DNA of 64,000 bases from Myxococcus dinghuensis. GTDB taxonomy: Bacteria > Myxococcota > Myxococcia > Myxococcales > Myxococcaceae. The notes under the pieces are model-generated. The model was not told the DNA's origin, made no database searches, and was given only the letters and a program-made list of their open reading frames with translations. The stretch covers positions 310,001-374,000 of the forward strand of contig NZ_JAKCFB010000001.1 in assembly GCF_024198235.1 (NCBI RefSeq). Direction: 5' to 3'. Positions 27,348 to 49,390 of the stretch are shown piece after piece (position 1 is the first letter of the stretch; the number at the start of each line of letters is the position of its first letter). The position numbers and the translations under genes were made by a program.

Positions 27348-28253
27348 CTAGGTCCCCTTCGCCACCAGCTCCGCCCACGGGGTGATGGCGCGGATGATGC
27401 CTTTCACACGGTCCGGCGCCATGCCCGAATCCCGCAGGCGCCGGGCCACCGCGTCGGTGTGGGGGACGGCGCGCTCGGTGAGGGCCACCAGCGCGGAGGC
27501 GACGGCGCAGGTGTCCTCGGGCTGGTCCATGCAGATGACCCGGTCATCCATGAAGACGCGCCAGAAGCCCTCGCACCGGCTGCGGCGGCGCTGGTCCGGG
27601 ATGAGGAAGAAGGGATGGAAGGTCCGGCTCAGCTCGTCGATGGCGTCGGTCAGGCCGATGCTGGCGTCGAGGTCGTCGCCGATGAGGTTCGCCACGTGTG
27701 TCCGGGACACCTCGTCGTCGGCGGGCTCGTCGCCCGTCATGAAGAAGTAGCCCTTCTTCCCCCGCTTCTCGAAGCAGTCCATCGCGGTGTGCCGGGCCGC
27801 GAAGTACATGCCCAGCTCATAGGACTCGAAGTCGTTCCCGCCGCCACCGCGCTCCAGGAACATCCAGGTGAGCCACTGGTCCATCTGCTGCTCGGAGGAC
27901 TCGAACTGACCTACCTGGAGCGGGGCGTCGTCGTTGACGGCGTCGCCCACCGCCATGAAGAGCACCTGCGGGTCGGGGATGCCGGCCTCCATCAGGTCCT
28001 TCATGAACGAGGGGAACGTCTGCCGCGCGAGGATTTCGGGGATGTTCCCCATGGAGCCCGTCACGTCGAGCGCCATGACGACCGCGAGCGACTGGGGATG
28101 GACGTCGCTGTCCCGGCTCTCGCGAAACTTCACCCGGTACGGATTCATGCGGGGGTGCAAGGCCTGCTGCAGGAAGACTTCCTGGGGAGGAAGTTCGCTG
28201 CGGGCCTTGGTCATCGCCTCGTGTGCTGCGTAGCTGTAGCTGCCGTACCCCAT
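27348..28253 (-). CDS. vWA-domain protein, copy 1 (end of pseudokinase/PurA-like operon)
   Basis: The 301-aa cytoplasmic protein opens with MGYGSYSY and has a von Willebrand A domain with MIDAS DVTGSMG at residues 63-69. Further conserved stretches are FMAVGDAVNDDAPLQVGQF, ESYELGMYFAARHT and KKGYFFMTGDE. vWA domains bind divalent metal and assemble protein complexes. It is a paralogue of the vWA gene at 29720-30712, with long identical blocks (RFRESRDSD/KFRESRDSD, PLQVGQFESSE). It is the last gene of a four-gene minus-strand operon and starts 81 bases after the PurA-like stop. GAGGGGG upstream of the ATG serves as ribosome site. Role unknown; a regulated scaffold is inferred. Confidence 0.8.
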   Translation of the reverse strand: MGYGSYSYAAHEAMTKARSELPPQEVFLQQALHPRMNPYRVKFRESRDSDVHPQSLAVVMALDVTGSMGNIPEILARQTFPSFMKDLMEAGIPDPQVLFMAVGDAVNDDAPLQVGQFESSEQQMDQWLTWMFLERGGGGNDFESYELGMYFAARHTAMDCFEKRGKKGYFFMTGDEPADDEVSRTHVANLIGDDLDASIGLTDAIDELSRTFHPFFLIPDQRRRSRCEGFWRVFMDDRVICMDQPEDTCAVASALVALTERAVPHTDAVARRLRDSGMAPDRVKGIIRAITPWAELVAKGT

Positions 28254-28334
28254 GGTGGTGCGACCCCCTCACGTCTCGTGGCGCGTGGACTGCGCTCGAA
28301 TGGGGGACAGGCTAGTCCGTGGGCCCGCCGGACG

Positions 28335-29723
28335 TCAGCACCGGGGCCGCTTGTCCCGCGCCGCCGGCCCATGGGACGTCACCGACACCTTCACCCGGAG
28401 CGCGGACTCCACCCAGGCGACGAAGCGCTCCGTCCGTTCGGCCGGTGTCCCTCCCAGGTCCAACGCCTCTCGCGAGGGGGCGCAGCGGGAGAGGAACCCG
28501 GTGAGTCGCGCCTGCCAGTCGAGGTCCTCGCGAGGTCCCGCCCGCAGCCCCGTGACGTGCCCGGAGTCCGGACTCCCGAGGAAGAGGGGCGCGTCGTCCT
28601 CCGATGTGGTCGTCGGGACCCGGTAGCTGTTGCTCACGGGCCAGCGAGACGCCAGCCGGTCCAGGTGGGTCAGGGCCAGCGTGTCCACGCCTCCGCAGAC
28701 CTCCAGGGCGTAACGGGCGAGCACGGCGTCGAAGTGGCCCACCCGGAACGAGCCCTGCCAGCCTCCGGCGTCGTTGTGCGGCTCGGGCACGGAGGGCGCC
28801 AGGGCGGGCTCCTCGGTGGGCAGCGGTCCCTCGCCATGGCGCGTGGCATACGTGCGCAGCACGCCGAGCCGACGGATTTCTCCCTCGAAGCCGTGCTCGC
28901 GCAGCAACTCCAGCGCGGGGTCGAAGGTGCAGGTGCTCCAGGTCGTGTGGGGATGGAAGCCCCGCCACTCGTCCAGCAACACGCCCTGCGCGCCCTCGAA
29001 GACGGTGTGGTGCGAGGCGCGCAGTCGATGACCGAGCCAGGCGTCCTCGACCACGAACCGACGTGGCCCGAGTGCCCGCACGGCGTCCGCCCAACGAACG
29101 ACGACCTCTGGGTCGTCCAGGAGCATCCACTCGCGTTCCGCGAACGGCAGCCTCCGGAGCACGGGACGCAGCGCCGCGACGTCCGCGCGCAAGCGCTCCT
29201 GGGCGGCGCGGGCCTTCCGGATGAGCGCGGTGGGATGGGCCAGCTCGCCCGCGAACACGATGTCCGTCGGATTCGCGAGCGCGTCGCGCACCGTCTCTCC
29301 CACGCCGACGCCGCACGTACCATGTCGGCGCTCCCCCCGGGCCAGCTCCCGCAGCCGGCCCACGGCCTGATGGAAGGGAGTGATGACGCGCGCATGCTCG
29401 CTGACCGTCACCCGCTCCATGGCGTCGGGCACGCCCTGCTTCGCGAGGAAGTCCGCCTCCACGCGCAGGGCCAGGGGGTGGAAGACGGTGGTGCGGGCCA
29501 GGTGCGTGCGCACGCCCGCGACGAAGCTGCCCGCGCCGACCTGGGAGAAGGTGTGGTGTCGCCCGTCATCGGTGACGACGTTGTGGCCCGCCTGGGCTCC
29601 GCCGTTGAAGCGCACCACGAGCCCCGCGCCGTGTCGCCGCACCAGCCAGTCGGTCAACGTCCCCTTGCCCGCGTCACCGAAGCCCAGGTCGACGACGACG
29701 TGGGCGGTCCGGGCCGGGCTCAT
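28335..29723 (-). CDS. Divergent adenylosuccinate-synthetase-like enzyme
   Basis: The 462-aa protein keeps the PurA framework: GTP-loop GDAGKGTLTD (Asp17 equals the catalytic Asp, while the usual following Glu is Ala18), FNGGAQAGHNVV with catalytic His47, GTCGVGVGETVRD, FEGAQGVLLDEWRG (242-255), and TYATRHGEGPLPTE (291-304). The loop that in PurA reads TTGRxRR and binds aspartate is replaced by DAGGWQGSFR (about 318-327). True PurA joins aspartate to IMP using GTP; the changes suggest another acceptor or amine donor. It overlaps the upstream vWA gene by four bases (ATGA), indicating translational coupling. It is unlikely to be the housekeeping purA. Confidence 0.85.
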   Translation of the reverse strand: MSPARTAHVVVDLGFGDAGKGTLTDWLVRRHGAGLVVRFNGGAQAGHNVVTDDGRHHTFSQVGAGSFVAGVRTHLARTTVFHPLALRVEADFLAKQGVPDAMERVTVSEHARVITPFHQAVGRLRELARGERRHGTCGVGVGETVRDALANPTDIVFAGELAHPTALIRKARAAQERLRADVAALRPVLRRLPFAEREWMLLDDPEVVVRWADAVRALGPRRFVVEDAWLGHRLRASHHTVFEGAQGVLLDEWRGFHPHTTWSTCTFDPALELLREHGFEGEIRRLGVLRTYATRHGEGPLPTEEPALAPSVPEPHNDAGGWQGSFRVGHFDAVLARYALEVCGGVDTLALTHLDRLASRWPVSNSYRVPTTTSEDDAPLFLGSPDSGHVTGLRAGPREDLDWQARLTGFLSRCAPSREALDLGGTPAERTERFVAWVESALRVKVSVTSHGPAARDKRPRC

Positions 29724-30712
29724 CGGTGGGGGTTCTCGGTGAGCCGCTGGAGGCCGGAGGGCGAGTCGTGCTCGGGGAGGGGCTCGTCCTCCAGGCGGGG
29801 ATGGGGCGTGCCATCGCGTCCCAGCGTCGCGGCGAACGGGGTGAGCGCGCGGATGACCGCGCCCAGCCGCTCGCGCCCCAATCCCCCGCGCTGGAGGTGT
29901 CCGGCGAGCGCGTCGAGGTCAGGGATGGCGCCCTCGCACAGCGCGACGAGCCCCGCCGCGACGTCGACGGTGTCCGTGGCGTCCTCCAGGCAGATGACGC
30001 GGTCGCCGAGCAGCTCGCGCCAGTCGCGCTCGCACTTCCGACGTCGCGCCAGGTCGGGGATGAGGAAGAACGGCTCGTAGCCGCGCTGGAGCTCACCCAG
30101 CACGTGGCGGATGGGGACGTCCTGCTCCAGCGTGTCCCCGATGAGGTCGGTCACCTGTCGTCGGGAGACGTAGCCGTAGGGGCGCTCGTCGCCCGTCATG
30201 AAGAAGTAGCCGCGGTGTCCGCGCTTGCGCCAGCAGTCGAGGTCGGTGTGGGCCGCGGCGAAGTACATGGCCAGCTCGTACGACTCCATGCCCTCGGTCC
30301 CGCCGCCACCCTCCAGGTAGAGCGAGGTGAGCCACTGGTCCATCTGCCGCTCGGAGGACTCGAACTGGCCTACCTGGAGCGGCGCGCGGTCGCTGTGCGC
30401 GTCACCCACCGCCATGAAGCACACCTGCGGGTCGGCAACGCCCGCTTCGAGCAGGGCCTTCATGAAGGCGGGGAGGCGCTGGCGCGCGAGCAGCTCCGGG
30501 ATGTGGCCCATGGAGCCGGTGACGTCGAGGGCGAAGACGATGCCCAGCGAGTTCGGGTGCCCGTCGCTGTCGCGGCTCTCCCGGAACCGCACGCCGTGGG
30601 GCTCCATCAGGGGATGACAGCGGTCCTGCCGGAACAACGCCTGGCGCGGGACGTGGGCGCGCTCACGCGTGAGCGACTCGTGCGCGTCGTAGCTGTAGCT
30701 CCCGTAACCCAT
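29720..30712 (-). CDS. vWA-domain protein, copy 2
   Basis: The 330-aa protein is a paralogue of the vWA protein at 27348-28253 with the same opening (MGYGSYSYDAHES) and MIDAS (DVTGSMG at 63-69). It also has FMAVGDAHSDRAPLQVGQF, GGGGTEGMESYELAMYFAA and RGYFFMTGDE. It carries a longer, Pro-rich C terminus (about 295-330) that copy 1 lacks. Its stop overlaps the PurA-like start by four bases, and it starts 36 bases after the pseudokinase stop, so it is cotranscribed with both. GGAGTG upstream of the ATG is the ribosome site. vWA proteins in such clusters usually hold multi-protein complexes; no enzyme activity is expected. Confidence 0.8.
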   Translation of the reverse strand: MGYGSYSYDAHESLTRERAHVPRQALFRQDRCHPLMEPHGVRFRESRDSDGHPNSLGIVFALDVTGSMGHIPELLARQRLPAFMKALLEAGVADPQVCFMAVGDAHSDRAPLQVGQFESSERQMDQWLTSLYLEGGGGTEGMESYELAMYFAAAHTDLDCWRKRGHRGYFFMTGDERPYGYVSRRQVTDLIGDTLEQDVPIRHVLGELQRGYEPFFLIPDLARRRKCERDWRELLGDRVICLEDATDTVDVAAGLVALCEGAIPDLDALAGHLQRGGLGRERLGAVIRALTPFAATLGRDGTPHPRLEDEPLPEHDSPSGLQRLTENPHR

Positions 30713-30748: not shown

Positions 30749-31765
30749 TCAACGCCACCCGGGCAGGGTGAAGGGGGTGAAGCGCGACGGCCCGAAGGCC
30801 TCGTGCGCGGCGGCGGAGACCTGCTCCTTCAGCGCCCAGGCATCGACGTCGTCGTTCGCGGGCTCGCACTGCGCTCGCAGCAGGTCGGCCAGGGGAGGCG
30901 GGACCCGCGTGGGCGTCGTGCCCGTGGAGGGGTCACCGCCCAGCACCCAGACGAGGCTGCGCGCGCACATCGCCGCGTCGGTGGCGGTGGAGGGGGCTCC
31001 GCCTCGCCAGAGCGCCTCGGGGTAGAAGGCCCGGTGCGCGGTGCTGAGGGCGCGCGCCGAACCTCGGCCGCCGCGCGGGAGTGCGTGGGTCCAGCCCACC
31101 AGCATCAACCCATGGTCCCTGGGGTGGACGAGCAGGTGGGGCGGCAGGACGGCGCCGTGGACGTAGCCCGAGCGGTGCACGAAGCCGAGCAGCTCCAGCG
31201 CGCGCTTCCACATCCACACCGCCGCGCGCGGGTCGATGCCCTCGGCGTAGACCTCGCGAAGCTCCGTGAACGCGTGCTGGAAGCCGCTCGCCCAGCGATA
31301 CACGGTGGCGGGGCGCGGCGTACCGCCGGCCTCCTTCGCCAGCCCCCGCGCCACGGGTTGGGGCAGCAGCCGCGTGAAGTGCTCGGCGCCCTGGGCCGTG
31401 CTGCCTTGGAGCGTCTCGAGGGTGGTGTACTCGTCGCTCGACAGGTCCGCGTCGGCGAGGGCCCGGGCGACCTTGATGACCACCATCTCCGTGAGGCGCG
31501 CGTCACGCCGGGCGAGGAAGACGTCGCTGCTGTCCCCGCGCCCCAACCGACCGAGCAGGACATAGCGGGTGTCCTCCACCGTCACGCGGGGCCGGTCCGG
31601 CGCGAAGGGCGGGTCGTCCGCGGGACGCGCGGGGCGGGGCCAGACGGTGACACCCTTCGCGGACACCATCGCGCCGCAGTAGTCGCAGGTGAGGATGCTG
31701 CTGATGGACGAGGGAGGGGGCAGGTTCGCGCCACAGCCAGGACATTTCAGGAGCCGCGTTTCCAT
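30749..31765 (-). CDS. Zinc-ribbon pseudokinase
   Basis: The 338-aa protein begins with a zinc ribbon (CPGC at 8-11, CDYC at 27-30) followed by a protein-kinase-like fold from about 65. The Gly-rich loop GRLGRGDSSDV and lysine in VVIKVA (98) are kept, but the catalytic loop reads HGAVLPPHLL (203-212; Asp replaced by Ala, Asn by His) and DFG is replaced by VGW. I therefore predict a nucleotide-binding pseudokinase or sensor. The ATG at 31765 has GGGGTGGAG just upstream; a GTG two codons earlier is possible. It heads the four-gene operon and is divergent from the PIN gene with 51 bases between starts. Confidence 0.75.
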   Translation of the reverse strand: METRLLKCPGCGANLPPPSSISSILTCDYCGAMVSAKGVTVWPRPARPADDPPFAPDRPRVTVEDTRYVLLGRLGRGDSSDVFLARRDARLTEMVVIKVARALADADLSSDEYTTLETLQGSTAQGAEHFTRLLPQPVARGLAKEAGGTPRPATVYRWASGFQHAFTELREVYAEGIDPRAAVWMWKRALELLGFVHRSGYVHGAVLPPHLLVHPRDHGLMLVGWTHALPRGGRGSARALSTAHRAFYPEALWRGGAPSTATDAAMCARSLVWVLGGDPSTGTTPTRVPPPLADLLRAQCEPANDDVDAWALKEQVSAAAHEAFGPSRFTPFTLPGWR

Positions 31766-31816
31766 CTCCACCCCTCATGATGTACGGCCCACGATAGCGC
31801 ACTCGCCGAAGCCGCC

Positions 31817-42555: not shown

Positions 42556-43851
42556 ATGAGCGATTCTCCAACGGATTCCCCGCGCGCGGACGGCCCGCGC
42601 ATCCGGGGCTTGGAGCAGGTGGACCGGCTGTCGGTGCCCCTGCCGCATGGCACGGAGGTCACCACGCGCGTGGAGCGCCTGGCCTCCGGAGGTCGCCGCA
42701 TCCCCCAGGGCGTGGTGGGCCGGGTGGTGCGCGCGCACGACGGCGGGTTCGACGTGCAGATCGTCGGCGTGGGCGAGGTGTGGTTCGCGCGGGATGAGCT
42801 GGTGCCCCGTCGCCCGGGGCAGGTGCAGTTCGCCCGGCGCCGCGAGGCGGCCTGGAGCGCGCTGACGCCCTGTGTGGTGCTGGAGACCCGCGTGGGCAGC
42901 CACGCCTGGGGACTGGCCAACGAGCACTCGGACGTGGACGTGCGGGGCGTCTTCGCGCTGCCGCTGCCGTGGACCTTCGGGTTGACGCAGGCCCCGGTGG
43001 ACCTGGTGAGCGCGGACGGGAGCACCACGTACTGGGAGGTGCGCAAGCTGGTGGAGCAGGCGCTGCGCGCGGACCCCAACACGCTGGAGACGCTGTTCGT
43101 CCCCGGCGCGAGGGCGCTCGACGTCGTCGGCGAGTGGTTGCTCGCGGAGCGCGAGGCGTTCGTGTCCAAGGCCATCTTCGGCAGCTTCGGCCGCTATGCG
43201 ATGAGCCAGCTCGACAAGCTCACGCGGAGCCAGCGCCTGGCCGAGCACCGCGACCTGCTCCTGGCGTGGCTGTGCGAGGAGCCGGCGCCCGACCTGGACG
43301 AAGTGGCGCGGCGGCTGGCGGCGGTGTCTCCCCGGAGCGCCACGTCGGAGGACAACGCGCTGCTGGCCGCGAAGACGTACGTGAAGCAGCTCTACCGCTC
43401 GCTGTGGGACCAGGGGTTGCTGACGGCCAACGACTTCGCGGCGCTCACGGCGTACGCGCGTGGGGGAGGGCAGCGTCCGCCGTCCGCGCGCGAGCTGCGC
43501 CCGAAGAACGCCTACAACCTGCTCCGGCTGGTCTCCACGGCCACGGGCTGGCTGCGGCACGGCGAGCCCACCTTCGAGGCGACGGGCGCGCTGAAGGCGC
43601 GACTGCTCGACATCAAGGGCGGCAAGGTGCCGTTGGAGGAGGTGCTGCGGGACGCGGAGGCCCTGGCGCCGGAGTTGGAAGCGGCGCAACGCGACAGCCG
43701 CCTGCCGGAGCACCCGGACTTCGCCCGCGCGGATCGCCTCCTGCGCCGCGTGGGGGAGGAGCTGGCGCACCGCTGGGTGACGAAGGCGCCGGGCCCGCTG
43801 GGCCGGGACGCGCCGGAGCCCCCGGCCATGGAGTGGAGGGATCCGGAATGA
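42556..43851 (+). CDS. RlaP-type nucleotidyltransferase with N-terminal SH3-like domain
   Basis: The 431-aa protein carries the DNA-polymerase-beta-superfamily signature GSHAWGLANEHSDVDVRGVF around residues 115-134, with the two metal-binding Asp residues, and a helical C terminus. This fits the RlaP (RNA-repair pathway polymerase-beta) family. The first 100 residues (TTRVERLASGGRRIPQGVVG, GFDVQIVGVGEVWFARDEL) look like a small SH3/KOW-type beta-barrel that could bind RNA. Its stop overlaps the start of a second nucleotidyltransferase of the same superfamily by four bases (ATGA), so they are coupled. It likely adds nucleotides or processes RNA ends; the substrate is unknown. Confidence 0.8.
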   Translation: MSDSPTDSPRADGPRIRGLEQVDRLSVPLPHGTEVTTRVERLASGGRRIPQGVVGRVVRAHDGGFDVQIVGVGEVWFARDELVPRRPGQVQFARRREAAWSALTPCVVLETRVGSHAWGLANEHSDVDVRGVFALPLPWTFGLTQAPVDLVSADGSTTYWEVRKLVEQALRADPNTLETLFVPGARALDVVGEWLLAEREAFVSKAIFGSFGRYAMSQLDKLTRSQRLAEHRDLLLAWLCEEPAPDLDEVARRLAAVSPRSATSEDNALLAAKTYVKQLYRSLWDQGLLTANDFAALTAYARGGGQRPPSARELRPKNAYNLLRLVSTATGWLRHGEPTFEATGALKARLLDIKGGKVPLEEVLRDAEALAPELEAAQRDSRLPEHPDFARADRLLRRVGEELAHRWVTKAPGPLGRDAPEPPAMEWRDPE

Positions 43852-44639
43852 AGGGCACGATGACGGAGCACGAGCACGCGGTCGCGAGCCGCGTGCTCGA
43901 CGAGGAGTCCACCAGACGCGAGCACCTGGTGGTGGCGTTGTCGGGGGCGCATGCCTATGGCTTCCCCTCACCCGACAGCGACCTGGACCTGAAGTCCATC
44001 CATGTCGCGTCCACCGCCACGTTGCTGGGGCTGCAGCCGCGGCACATCACCGCCGAGCGCCTCCAGGTGGTGGACGGCGTGGAGGTGGACTACTCGTCCA
44101 ACGAGCTGCACCCGGTGCTCCTGGGGCTCCTCCAGGGCAACGGCAACTACTTCGAGCGCGTGCTCGGCGCCATCCCGGTGCGGACGTCGCCGGAGCTGCC
44201 GGCGCTCCAGCCCCTGGTGGCGGGTGTGCTGTCGCGTCGCGTCCACCGGCACTACCGGGGCTTCGCGCACGGACAGCTCCGGGAGTGGGAGAAGAGCGGG
44301 TTCCGCTCCGCGAAGAAGCTGCTCTACGTGCTGCGCACCACGCTCACCGGGACGCACGTGCTACGCACGGGCGTGCTGGAGACGGACGTCACGGAGCTGC
44401 TGGACCTGTACGGCTTCTCGGAGGCGCACGCGTTGGTGGAGCAGAAGCGGCGGGGCGAGAAGAGCGAGCTGCCCGACGCGCTGAGCGAGACCTGGCGCAG
44501 GGAGGTGTCCCGCTCCTTCGAGGTGCTCGACCAGGCGCTGAGCGCCTCCGTGCTGCCCGAGGAGCCTCCCGCGCAGGCGGTGGAGGCGCTGGAGGCGTGG
44601 CTGCTCGACGTGCGGCGACGGAAGTTCGTCGCCGCCTGA
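43848..44639 (+). CDS. RlaP-type nucleotidyltransferase, second gene of pair
   Basis: The 263-aa protein has the signature SGAHAYGFPSPDSDLDLKSI near residue 33, with DxD metal ligands as in RlaP/polymerase-beta nucleotidyltransferases, then VEVDYSSNELHPVLLGLLQG (third acidic residue) and a helical C terminus. It is related to the preceding protein but lacks its N-terminal beta domain and is shorter. It starts inside the end of the first gene (ATGA), so the two should be made together, perhaps as a heteromeric enzyme. RNA-repair function is inferred from the family and from the RNA-repair protein encoded 1.7 kb away. Confidence 0.8.
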   Translation: MKGTMTEHEHAVASRVLDEESTRREHLVVALSGAHAYGFPSPDSDLDLKSIHVASTATLLGLQPRHITAERLQVVDGVEVDYSSNELHPVLLGLLQGNGNYFERVLGAIPVRTSPELPALQPLVAGVLSRRVHRHYRGFAHGQLREWEKSGFRSAKKLLYVLRTTLTGTHVLRTGVLETDVTELLDLYGFSEAHALVEQKRRGEKSELPDALSETWRREVSRSFEVLDQALSASVLPEEPPAQAVEALEAWLLDVRRRKFVAA

Positions 44640-44648
44640 TTCGAGGGC

Positions 44649-45569
44649 TCAGGGCGACAGTTCGGAGAGTCGCGACAGCGAGCGGTCCTTCACCTTGAGC
44701 CAGGCTTGCTGCCGGAACAGGTACGTGGCGCAGACGCGGCGCCACGTCCACACGTCCGGCAGCGTCCACCACTCCTCGGGGGGCCGGACGCCCCGGTCGC
44801 GCAGGTTGCCGATACCGCGGTAGCCCACGCCATCGAGTCCGTTGGCGGCGTTGGACTCGAGCACCAGCACCTTGTCCGTCTCCGGGTGGTGGTCGACGAT
44901 GAGGAAGGTGTGTCCGGAGCGCCACTGGTTGCGCCACCCCTGGATGAGCGTCCACGGGTGCGGCGCGACGTCGTCGGACGGCGCGGGGATGGCCATGCCA
45001 CTCTCCACGGCGGCGGTGACCGGGGAGAAGTAATCCTCCGAGGAAGCGATCATCATCTGGCGATGCCGACGCGCATCCCACGCGAGGGCGTCACCGTGTG
45101 CGTCCGCGAAGGCCTTCACCGTCAGGGCCTCGACGAAGGTGCAGCAGTTGTTGCGCTGGGGCGGCGCCATGGGCACGCGGATGCCGGGCAGGGCCCAGGG
45201 ATAGAAGGCCTCGTCCAGGTCGTAGCGGAAGTCGCGGAACGCGCCGAGCAGGTTGACGAGTCGCTCCTCGGCGATGGCCATGGGCTCGTCGTCGAAGGGC
45301 AGCCGCACCGCTGGCGGCGGCTTCGCCTGGTTGACGAGCGACACATAGCGTTGTGTCCGCCACCGCGTGCAGATCCACGTGTCGAGCGCGCCCAGCGTCG
45401 GCACCTCCAGCCGCGCGTAGTCCGTGTCCGGCGTGGGGAAGCCCTGCTTCTCGTCGAGGACGAAGTAGTCGCCGGGTTCGACGTAGCCCTCGAACTGGGA
45501 CTGGGTGTTTGGCTCCACATAACCGCGAAGCCGGATGGGCAGCTTCGCGACGCGGTAGGTGTCTGACAT
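44649..45569 (-). CDS. SH3b-like plus NlpC/P60-like (papain-fold) protein without signal peptide
   Basis: The 306-aa protein starts at MSDTYRVAKL. Residues 5-75 form an SH3-like beta segment (LRGYVEPNTQSQFEGYVEPG). Residues 125-270 read as a papain-like fold: a Cys in RNNCCTFVEAL (142-143), a His in WRSGHTFLIVDHH (220) and an acidic/Asn in VLESNAANG (238-240), matching the NlpC/P60-CHAP triad order. Such enzymes cut peptidoglycan peptides or amides. No signal peptide is present, so it is either cytoplasmic or exported by a non-Sec route. The family is inferred from triad order and is not certain. It is convergent with the nucleotidyltransferase pair, nine bases away. Confidence 0.55.
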   Translation of the reverse strand: MSDTYRVAKLPIRLRGYVEPNTQSQFEGYVEPGDYFVLDEKQGFPTPDTDYARLEVPTLGALDTWICTRWRTQRYVSLVNQAKPPPAVRLPFDDEPMAIAEERLVNLLGAFRDFRYDLDEAFYPWALPGIRVPMAPPQRNNCCTFVEALTVKAFADAHGDALAWDARRHRQMMIASSEDYFSPVTAAVESGMAIPAPSDDVAPHPWTLIQGWRNQWRSGHTFLIVDHHPETDKVLVLESNAANGLDGVGYRGIGNLRDRGVRPPEEWWTLPDVWTWRRVCATYLFRQQAWLKVKDRSLSRLSELSP

Positions 45570-45710
45570 GGGAATCCCCGAGCGGTGTGACTTCGGGTGA
45601 AGTCTATCCCGCTCGGAGGCATGGCTCGTATGACTCGCCAAGGTGTCCATGGCGTCGCCGCCCCTCGGGGTTCCGCGAGGGGGGGGCTCGACGCACCGGG
45701 GGGGCGCCGG

Positions 45711-46318: not shown

Positions 46319-49300
46319 TCACGTCTCCCCGCGCAGCAGCTCTATCTGGAGCCCCGCGTCGGGAGGGCGTGCGGGCCACGCCTGGAATGAGGCCTTGAAC
46401 GACTCGACGGCCCTGAAGAGGGGGCTGTCCGGCACCCAGCGCAGCGCCTCCGCGTCCCGGGTGTCGCGGATGGACAGGCCCAGGACGATGGCGCCCTGGG
46501 CGGGAGTGTCGAACATGGGCCGGACGGCGAGGCGCCGGTCGCCCTCCAGGCGGTACACCAGCTCCGTGATGTGGCCCAGCACCCAGCCCTGTTCGACGAC
46601 GAGGTCCGAGCGAGGGGCGGAGACGCTCACGCGCAACCGCGTGGAGGCGATGCGCGGAGGCTCCACGGGCTCGAAGAGCGCGGACCACGCGGCGGGGCTC
46701 GCGTCCTGTCGGGCCTGGGTGATGAGCTCCAGGGCGCGGGTCAGCTCCTCTCGAAGGACGCGGACGGTGGAGCGCGACACGTTGCGCGCGGTGTTGCGCG
46801 CGGGCATCGCGGGGGCGATGACCGGGAACAGGTCGCGCTTCCCGTCGGGGTGATAGCGGGTCGCCTCGGGCGTGAGGCCCACGGGCTGGGGCCAGGGCCA
46901 GGCGGCGAAGGTCTGGAAGAAGTGGGCGAGTCGGGCGGCGTCGGAGGTGGACGCGGCTCCCGGCGCGCGCGTGCGCGCCCAGGCAACCATCACCGCCCAG
47001 GACAAGCCGCCCAGATAGCCGAGCGCGTGTGAGTAGAGGCCGCGCGCCTTCGCCCAGGTCTTCACCAGCCGCAGCAGGGCGCGGAAGTGCTCGAGTTCGC
47101 CCTCCTCGCGGGAGACGTGCGCGAGCAGCTCCTGGGAGTCGAGCAGGCCCAGCAGCGCGCGCTGCCCCGCGACGTCCAGCCCTTCTTCCTGTCGTGCGAG
47201 CAGCTCGGGAGGGGCATCGGCATCCATGCCTTCAGGCCGGCTCGCGTACGTGAGGTCGATCCCCAGCCCGCCCAGTGACAGCTTCACGAGCGGGATGGCG
47301 GCATCGGCGACGAAGCGGGCGGAGTCGAGCGGAGACGCTCGCCGCGCCGCGACGAGGTCGGTGAGCGCGCGCGCGAAGTCCTGGCGGGACAGGTCCGAGG
47401 GGCCCAGGGCCACCGCGTCCACGTCACCGTCTACGCCCGCCGTGCCCAGCAGGGACGAGCCATACAGGTGCAGCGTGGCGCCCGACTGCTCACACAGCCC
47501 ACGCAGCCGCTCGATGACCTCCTCGCGAGGGCGCGGCACTCGCGAGGGCGCGGTCTGGACCTGGGCGACCGCGGCATAGAGCAGGACGTCTTCCTGGTGG
47601 GCATCCAGGACCTTGGGACGCCCCAAGGGGATGCGGCGGACGACCTCGAACGGTGTGTCGCCCACGCGTCGGATGATGCAGACCTCTCGCGCTTCGAACG
47701 TGACGGGGCGCCAGGTCCGCTCCCATTGGGAGAGCGTGCGTTCGAGCTGCCCGTCACGAGAGAGGGGGAGCTGGCCCACGGACAGGTGCGGCGTGAAGCC
47801 GTGGCCCGCCGGCGTGGCGCACTCCGGCAGCGCCTGCTCCAGCCTCGCGTGGAGCGCGGCCAGCGCGCCCTGGGGCTGGTCCTCGGGCTTCAGCCAGGCC
47901 GTCGCGTTGACGCGGTGCTCGAAGTGGTGGAAGCCGGCGAGGGTGACCTCGAAGGGCTCCACCTGGCGGAGCGCATCGACGAGCACCGCCTCGGCCGCGT
48001 CGAGGTCCTCCTCGGGGAGGAACGGGTAGAGCAGGGTGACGTGGGGCATCCACCGCTCGAACTTCGCGTCGTGCTTCTTGCGCAGGGCCTGGATGGGGCC
48101 CCAGGAGGACTCGGGCGGGATGAGCACCACCGCGGTGTGGTGGACGCGGCGCGTGGTCCCAGCGCCTGTCGCTCCGGTGGTGGCCGCTGGTCCGCGACGC
48201 AAGACACAGGACAGGCCGTAGTGGTCCGACGCGAAGAGAGGGCCGCCGTCGGGGGCGGGGGCTCCCTCCAACGGCGCCTCCGCGAAGAGGGCGATGGTGT
48301 CGGGGGCGAGACGACCCGAACCGGAGGCGACGAGGACGCGGTCCAGCCGCTGGAGTCGTCCCGAGGTCGTGGTCAGCGCCGCGAGGTCGTTGAGGCGGGG
48401 GTTGTACGTCTCGCCCGTCTCCGAGGGGCGCAGCTCGGGCCACGCGTCCACGAAGCCCGCCTGGACGAAGCGGTCGGCCTCGGGCTCACCGTCCGACAGG
48501 TTGAAGTCACCCGCGAGCACGAGGTCCGGTGCGCCCTGCTCCTGGTGTGTGCCGACTGCCTGGGCCCACTCGATGATGGCCTGCACCTGGGCGGTGCGCG
48601 CGGCGCTCCCCGAAGGGTCCCGGTTGCTGGTGAGGTGCGGCGTGGCCACCCACAACGGGCCCCCCTCGAACGCGAGCTGGCCGGCGATGAGCCGCTTGTC
48701 CCGCGAGAACACGCGCTGCGACAGGGCGGCGAAGGGCCACTTCGACAAGAGCACCTGTCCGTAGGGCGTCACCGTGTCGGCGGAGGGCCCTTCGGAGACG
48801 TGGTAGCGCTCGCGCACCCAGGGCTCGGCGAGCAGCGCGCGCAGGAAGGGGGGCGTGACCTCTTGGAGGGCGATGACGTCCGCGTCCTGCTCGGCGAGGA
48901 GCGCGAGCGCGGCCGGCGTCCTCCGTTCGGTGGCCAGCAGCTCCGCGTCGTACAGGTCGAAGAGGACGTTGAAGGTGGCGACCGTGAGCGCGGAGGGCGC
49001 CGCCGTCACGGAGGCGGTGGCGGGTGTACCGACCCACTCACCGAGGCCCGCGTCGAAGCGATGCGCGGGCAGGGCGCTGAACCCGGCGGGGAGCGGGCCC
49101 GGGCGTGCCGGCGTGGAGACGGGCGGGGATGGCTCCGTCTCCGTGGGCCTGGGCTGGCTCAGCAGGTCGAGGCGCTCCTTGCGGTCCCACACCTTCTGGC
49201 GCCCGCGCTTGAAGTACCAGACACGGTGCCAGGGAATCTCGCCGTCGGGGACGAAGGCCTCGAAGGGCATCTCCTCCAGCGTCTCGCCGTGCGTGTCGTA

Positions 49301-49390
49301 GCCGATGACGAACTCACGCGCGTCCAGCCGCGGGTCCCAGCGGATGCGGTGGTACACCTCGCGGCTGGTCGTGAAGCGTTCCTGGGACAT
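46319..49390 (-). CDS. Multidomain RNA-repair protein (MJ1316-EEP-2H-PAP)
   Basis: The 1023-aa protein joins four RNA-end domains. MJ1316 (about 8-75): VYHRIRWDPRLDAREFVIGY, with IPWHRVWYFKRG. An endonuclease/exonuclease/phosphatase domain (135-398): TFNVLFD, IALQEV, LAGDFNLSD, SDHYGLSC. A 2H phosphoesterase domain (415-590) with its two HxT/S motifs at His450 (PHVTLLYPF) and His535 (PHLSVGQ). A poly(A)-polymerase-like nucleotidyltransferase (595-1000) with LYGSSLLGTAGVDGDVDAV (Asp656, Asp658) and IDLTYA (Asp712). All catalytic residues appear intact. It could open 2',3'-cyclic ends, trim and re-extend damaged RNA. This combination has been predicted in comparative genomics of RNA repair. Confidence 0.9.
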   Translation of the reverse strand: MSQERFTTSREVYHRIRWDPRLDAREFVIGYDTHGETLEEMPFEAFVPDGEIPWHRVWYFKRGRQKVWDRKERLDLLSQPRPTETEPSPPVSTPARPGPLPAGFSALPAHRFDAGLGEWVGTPATASVTAAPSALTVATFNVLFDLYDAELLATERRTPAALALLAEQDADVIALQEVTPPFLRALLAEPWVRERYHVSEGPSADTVTPYGQVLLSKWPFAALSQRVFSRDKRLIAGQLAFEGGPLWVATPHLTSNRDPSGSAARTAQVQAIIEWAQAVGTHQEQGAPDLVLAGDFNLSDGEPEADRFVQAGFVDAWPELRPSETGETYNPRLNDLAALTTTSGRLQRLDRVLVASGSGRLAPDTIALFAEAPLEGAPAPDGGPLFASDHYGLSCVLRRGPAATTGATGAGTTRRVHHTAVVLIPPESSWGPIQALRKKHDAKFERWMPHVTLLYPFLPEEDLDAAEAVLVDALRQVEPFEVTLAGFHHFEHRVNATAWLKPEDQPQGALAALHARLEQALPECATPAGHGFTPHLSVGQLPLSRDGQLERTLSQWERTWRPVTFEAREVCIIRRVGDTPFEVVRRIPLGRPKVLDAHQEDVLLYAAVAQVQTAPSRVPRPREEVIERLRGLCEQSGATLHLYGSSLLGTAGVDGDVDAVALGPSDLSRQDFARALTDLVAARRASPLDSARFVADAAIPLVKLSLGGLGIDLTYASRPEGMDADAPPELLARQEEGLDVAGQRALLGLLDSQELLAHVSREEGELEHFRALLRLVKTWAKARGLYSHALGYLGGLSWAVMVAWARTRAPGAASTSDAARLAHFFQTFAAWPWPQPVGLTPEATRYHPDGKRDLFPVIAPAMPARNTARNVSRSTVRVLREELTRALELITQARQDASPAAWSALFEPVEPPRIASTRLRVSVSAPRSDLVVEQGWVLGHITELVYRLEGDRRLAVRPMFDTPAQGAIVLGLSIRDTRDAEALRWVPDSPLFRAVESFKASFQAWPARPPDAGLQIELLRGET

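Follow-up and report, generated by a model that had tools for sequence, protein, structure and literature searches.

A four-domain bacterial protein with a eukaryotic-type poly(A) polymerase, predicted to heal and rebuild RNA 3′ ends

P0001, a 1,023-residue protein encoded by Myxococcus dinghuensis, is probably a single-chain enzyme that heals and rebuilds RNA 3′ ends within a repair pathway involving an ATP-dependent ligase. We arrived at this reading by sequence analysis of a window of 64,000 nucleotides (the whole stretch of DNA that was analysed) and of homologous loci in other genomes. The gene and its domains are laid out in the window as follows:

46319–49390, minus strand: coding sequence of the four-domain protein P0001 (1,023 aa; ATG at 49390)
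49181–49372, minus strand: MJ1316 domain (aa 7–70), a predicted binder of RNA 2′,3′-cyclic phosphate ends (Pfam PF04457, 8e-17)
49034–49081, minus strand: conserved short motif F104..D113..W119 (aa 104–119), between MJ1316 and EEP
48191–48994, minus strand: EEP (TDP2/ANGEL2-like) phosphatase/nuclease domain (aa 133–400; Pfam 1.7e-16; fold Z 27 to TDP2, 22 to ANGEL2)
47615–48139, minus strand: 2H phosphoesterase domain (aa 418–592; H450, H535; Pfam PF13563, 4.8e-38)
47096–47524, minus strand: poly(A)-polymerase nucleotidyltransferase (palm) domain (aa 623–765; D656, D658, D712)
46670–47089, minus strand: poly(A)-polymerase central domain (aa 768–907; Pfam PF04928, 8.3e-28)
46331–46660, minus strand: C-terminal RRM-like domain, as in canonical poly(A) polymerases (aa 911–1020; PAPOLG profile match, predicted fold)

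The first-pass annotation had placed four domains (MJ1316, EEP, 2H and poly(A)-polymerase-like) in this one chain, and had named the loss of a domain match in a profile search as grounds for refutation. The profile search recovered all four and lost none. Pfam matches above gathering scores cover residues 7–70 (MJ1316), 138–390 (Exo_endo_phos), 425–578 (2_5_RNA_ligase2) and 768–907 (PAP_central). Residues 133–400 combine the predicted EEP fold with the N/E/H/D/N/D/H set of that superfamily (N141, E177, H252, D295, N297, D389 and H390), and the 2H domain carries both of the motifs expected of it, H450-x-T and H535-x-S. Judged by these domains, the modules of P0001 are those of the predicted RNA-repair set, namely cyclic-end recognition, a 3′ phosphoesterase and a nucleotidyltransferase. 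The Pfam entries for RlaP (PF10127) and MJ1316 (PF04457) describe both in RNA-repair terms, and Burroughs & Aravind (2016), as relayed by PMC6514570 and PMC7824862, predicted RlaP, MJ1316, 2H and Rnl/RtcB as RNA repair modules.

The first-pass annotation gave no strand, and the frame proves to lie on the minus strand. RlaP had been listed among the domains to look for in P0001, and here too the annotation needs correcting. P0001 has no match to PF10127, its polymerase being a canonical eukaryotic-type poly(A) polymerase (PAP), and the true RlaPs are neighbouring genes. Pfam detects the palm weakly (PAP_NTPase, 3e-5, under the gathering score); phmmer against solved canonical poly(A) polymerases gives 1e-34, and a profile built from 19 homologues matches canonical PAP over residues 631–1010 at 2.9e-69. 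The C-terminal 110 residues have no Pfam match when searched alone and are the counterpart of the RRM-like domain in canonical PAPs, the PAPOLG profile running through residue 1010 and the fold aligning to the end. Structures were predicted from input that left out plasmid-derived rows. The full-length AF2 model had a mean pLDDT of 72 with low confidence in the PAP half, and the PAP part was therefore modelled separately (pLDDT 84, pTM 0.84). This second model aligns with human PAPOLG over 374 residues with a Z of 34, and with other canonical PAPs at Z 30–33; TUTases come next at about 21. Sequence profile and predicted fold both point to a canonical PAP, and hence to a polymerase other than RlaP. 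On these two lines of prediction, the last third of P0001 has a palm, a central domain and an RRM-like C-terminal domain, and so is a complete three-domain poly(A) polymerase of eukaryotic type.

Conservation was scored on 34 full-length homologues from three phyla. The whole EEP catalytic set, both 2H histidines and the nucleotidyltransferase DxD (D656/D658) are invariant in 34 of 34; among them are His450, His535 and Asp656, which the annotation had proposed as sites for mutation and which do stand at the expected catalytic positions. The third nucleotidyltransferase acidic residue, at position 712, is Asp or Glu throughout, and the W/D/H/R residues of MJ1316 are invariant with the sole exception of a drifting tandem duplicate in Pyxidicoccus fallax. 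The F104..D113..W119 motif is missing only from the homologues of one myxobacterial genus, g5. Some positions vary by lineage. Most myxobacteria have HxT as their first 2H motif, cyanobacteria and actinobacteria HxN, and position 786, a tyrosine in P0001 and, by alignment, in canonical PAPs, is Asp, Glu or His in several lineages, so that nucleotide preference may differ between them. Pairwise dN/dS is about 0.06–0.6 in every domain and often higher in the linkers, from which purifying selection is seen to act on each domain. Full-length homologues in Myxococcaceae, cyanobacteria and actinobacteria, conserved catalytic columns and the dN/dS of each domain together argue that the open reading frame did not arise by chance. 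In P. fallax the four-domain gene is tandemly duplicated (L031:4695-11285), and the upstream copy lacks several conserved MJ1316, 2H and nucleotidyltransferase residues.

Homologues were sought by protein search in 100 relatives and by profile search in 195 Myxococcota genomes. Full-length copies at 55–75% identity occur in most large-genome Myxococcaceae, divergent ones at 28–32% in genus g5, and full-length cyanobacterial and actinobacterial homologues at 32–36%; named relatives include Myxococcus, Corallococcus, Pyxidicoccus, Archangium, Hyalangium, Citreicoccus, Nostoc and Calothrix. Among plasmid records, homologues lie on large replicons of Embleya and Nonomuraea and on a Calothrix plasmid that is conjugative. 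Across the cyanobacterial phylum, 4 of 386 sampled genomes hold a full-length or nearly full-length relative, a patchy distribution that is compatible with lateral transfer. A phage or virus origin was rejected, with no relative found in viral contigs or phage records. One Nostoc-type homologue (L082:2500-7296) is interrupted where its PAP part begins, and its last 76 residues lie about 3 kb away. A record titled Comamonas sp. KCTC 72670 (L044) looks myxobacterial (9 Mb, Myxococcus synteny) and is probably mislabelled.

The gene neighbourhoods point to RNA repair. In two Embleya records and one Nonomuraea record, the start of the four-domain gene overlaps the stop of the upstream gene (TGATG). 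The upstream gene encodes a fusion of an RNA ligase (PF09414, 8e-33; motif KLDGEN) with an AAA_33 kinase, as identified by Pfam on one Embleya copy and extended by tblastn homology to the other two records. As read from these overlapping frames, translation of the four-domain gene in Embleya and Nonomuraea is coupled to that of the ligase-kinase fusion. Homologues from genus g5 are likewise encoded with a ligase and a kinase, three genomes having a 260-aa Rnl-type ligase and an AAA_33 kinase divergently adjacent to the four-domain gene. The window genome has neither a ligase nor a kinase next to the gene; elsewhere it has RtcB at five loci and Rnl-type ligases, three in all, and inspection of open reading frames around these three ligases revealed no evident repair cluster. 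In Nostoc, a further cyanobacterium and Corallococcus, a scan of the immediately neighbouring genes found none for RNA repair. The genes adjacent to P0001 in the window include RlaP:

42556–43851, plus strand: RlaP nucleotidyltransferase 1, convergent neighbour and probable partner (Pfam PF10127, 9e-20)
43848–44639, plus strand: RlaP nucleotidyltransferase 2, overlapping RlaP 1 by ATGA (PF10127, 2.3e-25)

This tandem pair lies 1.7 kb from the four-domain gene. The distance is about 1–4 kb in most Myxococcus and 11–22 kb in Archangium-type genomes, and the two are unlinked in Corallococcus-type genomes. Inherited synteny could account for part of the linkage, since the pair is present in most sampled Myxococcaceae genomes with or without the four-domain gene; RlaP is found in 27 of the 46 family genomes that lack a full-length copy. 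Taken together, the ligase-kinase operon, the adjacent ligase and kinase, and the RlaP pair favour the RNA-end-processing role that had been predicted for P0001 at the outset. Separating the RlaP pair from the four-domain gene is a gene for a 333-aa protein without a Pfam match (44649–45650, minus strand), which is present in full-length Myxococcus and Pyxidicoccus loci and missing where MJ1316 alone remains. Elsewhere in the window, an unusual cluster (27348–30712, minus strand) encodes two paralogous proteins of about 300–330 aa (MGYGSYSY...; the one that was searched has no Pfam match) that flank an adenylosuccinate-synthetase-like gene (28335–29723), with a zinc-ribbon/kinase-like gene upstream (30749–31771).

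We scored co-occurrence in 84 genomes of the family, with two that carry broken copies set aside. An Rnl-type ligase is present in 36 of 38 genomes with the full-length gene and in 12 of 46 without, at a cut (E<1e-9) that was set after inspection, weaker matches being mostly long (about 530 aa and up), DNA-ligase-like open reading frames. Within the four genera that have both states the counts are 29/29 and 6/16 (within-genus permutation p about 5e-5), a test that corrects for phylogeny and genome size in part, since near relatives are non-independent and genome size differs. RtcB is nearly universal and has no within-genus association with the four-domain gene (p 0.43); for RlaP the within-genus p is 0.12. 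A within-genus association with Rnl and none with RtcB fits an enzyme that makes 3′-OH ends, of the kind that Rnl requires and RtcB can do without, for an ATP-dependent ligase. RtcB ligation consumes the terminal phosphate that P0001 would remove (established chemistry; also PMC9525292).

These observations suggest how P0001 might work. Metal-independent RNases produce 2′,3′-cyclic phosphate and 5′-OH ends, and 2H enzymes open the cyclic phosphate ring. In the order of reactions that we infer, a metal-independent endoribonuclease would leave a 2′,3′-cyclic phosphate end to be bound by MJ1316, whose recognition of such ends is a prediction from the literature (PMC6514570). The 2H domain would then open the ring to a 2′- or 3′-phosphate and the EEP domain would remove it, or else attack the cyclic end directly as does ANGEL2, an EEP enzyme that hydrolyses 2′-phosphate and 2′,3′-cyclic phosphate (PMC9525292); some trimming is possible. 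The eukaryotic-type poly(A) polymerase would add one or more nucleotides to the resulting 3′-OH, replacing those that were lost, before a polynucleotide kinase phosphorylates the 5′ end and an ATP-dependent Rnl-type ligase seals the break. Kinase and ligase would be supplied from the same operon in actinobacteria, from next door in one myxobacterial genus and from elsewhere in the window genome.

The same clearing and tailing steps could instead serve disposal, with P0001 clearing phosphate-blocked 3′ ends and adding oligo(A), and 3′ exonucleases such as PNPase degrading the fragment. A canonical PAP with all three domains is a polymerase of the tailing type, no ligase is adjacent in the window genome, and ANGEL2 with MTPAP sets a precedent for coupling phosphate removal to polyadenylation, in that some mitochondrial transcripts need ANGEL2 hydrolysis before they can be polyadenylated (PMC9525292). 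The actinobacterial ligase-kinase operon, the ligase and kinase beside the gene in genus g5 and the co-occurrence with Rnl ligases speak against disposal, and because of this ligase linkage we favour repair over tailing and decay, which we consider unlikely. The EEP domain raises a different question. TDP2 is a 5′-end enzyme and the best match of this domain in both sequence (5e-19) and fold (AF2 model, Z 27), such that a TDP2-like activity on 5′-phosphotyrosyl or similar groups might let P0001 repair protein- or modifier-linked RNA or DNA ends at both termini. However, nocturnin, PDE12, CNOT6L and ANGEL2 follow at Z 22–23, no 5′-adduct-related genes occur in the gene context, and the remaining three domains concern RNA 3′ ends, leaving this a very improbable account. 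Scarcely credible is a CBASS/OAS-like defence role in which the nucleotidyltransferase makes, and 2H or EEP break, 2′-5′ or cyclic oligonucleotides: the central domain matches CBASS cyclase models weakly (NCBIfam 4.5e-5, PADLOC 5e-4), the NCBIfam match reaching 22.7 bits against a cut-off of 200, PAP matches are stronger by over 30 orders of magnitude, no effector gene was found nearby, and MJ1316 and the ligase/kinase context would be left unexplained. A CBASS oligonucleotide cyclase was rejected on these matches, all of them sub-threshold, and PADLOC returned no convincing match to a defence system.

Some genomes keep one domain of the putative repair enzyme. At the syntenic position in M. 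xanthus and close relatives, an MJ1316 open reading frame of about 77–90 aa is all that remains beside the RlaP pair, and these loci show no trace of EEP, 2H or PAP domains; in M. vastator this frame is about 15 bp from the pair. Some Archangium-group genomes also have a gene of this MJ1316-only kind (the MJ1316-only loci are L041–L044 and L085–L087). In a tree of the 80-column MJ1316 domain, many branches of which lack resolution, both MJ1316-only sets nest among full-length forms and supported branches force at least two label changes. We infer from this nesting that the enzymatic part was lost independently at least twice and the binding domain kept. A broader scheme can be put forward tentatively, in which one chain clears the cyclic-phosphate 3′ end and rebuilds it with a full eukaryotic-type PAP before Rnl sealing, and the kin of M. 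xanthus keep a lone MJ1316 as a trans-acting partner of the RlaP pair.

To our knowledge, a handful of bacterial RNA repair systems are known biochemically. If the repair reading is true, bacteria of three phyla possess a one-chain enzyme for clearing and rebuilding 3′ ends, built with a class of polymerase otherwise associated with eukaryotic mRNA tails. On this reading, MJ1316 should recognise cyclic-phosphate ends and a non-templated polymerase should put back lost nucleotides before sealing. Our literature search found no paper on the four-domain protein or on MJ1316 biochemistry. The RNA-repair modules had already been predicted, and the four-domain chain with a canonical PAP is a new form of them, although it may be listed in the 2016 work. 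New here are the identity of the PAP, the ligase-kinase coupling, the Rnl co-occurrence and the neighbouring RlaP pair with MJ1316-only remnants.

P0001 shares features with several known systems. With the predicted RNA repair systems of Burroughs & Aravind (2016), so far as secondary accounts describe them, it has in common MJ1316, 2H, ligase, kinase and nucleotidyltransferase modules and gene neighbours; it differs from them in carrying four modules per chain and in a canonical eukaryotic-type PAP that replaces RlaP. Streptomyces MJ1316-2H proteins (L050, 300 aa) share those two domains with P0001 and, unlike it, lack EEP and PAP. Canonical eukaryotic PAPs (PAPOLA, PAPOLG, Pap1 and Pla1) have the same palm, central and RRM-like domains and catalytic DxD..D, whereas the P0001 polymerase is bacterial, is fused behind MJ1316-EEP-2H and has Tyr786 replaced in several homologue lineages. 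ANGEL2 shares the EEP fold (Z 22), and P0001 would likewise clear ends before polyadenylation, but its EEP domain is nearer to TDP2 and its phosphatase activity is predicted. Finally, T4 Pnkp/Rnl1 and bacterial Pnkp-Hen1-type tRNA repair join healing, a kinase and an ATP-dependent ligase. The actinobacterial operon follows the same logic, except that 3′ healing would fall to the predicted 2H and EEP activities in place of a Pnkp phosphatase, and that a polymerase has been added.
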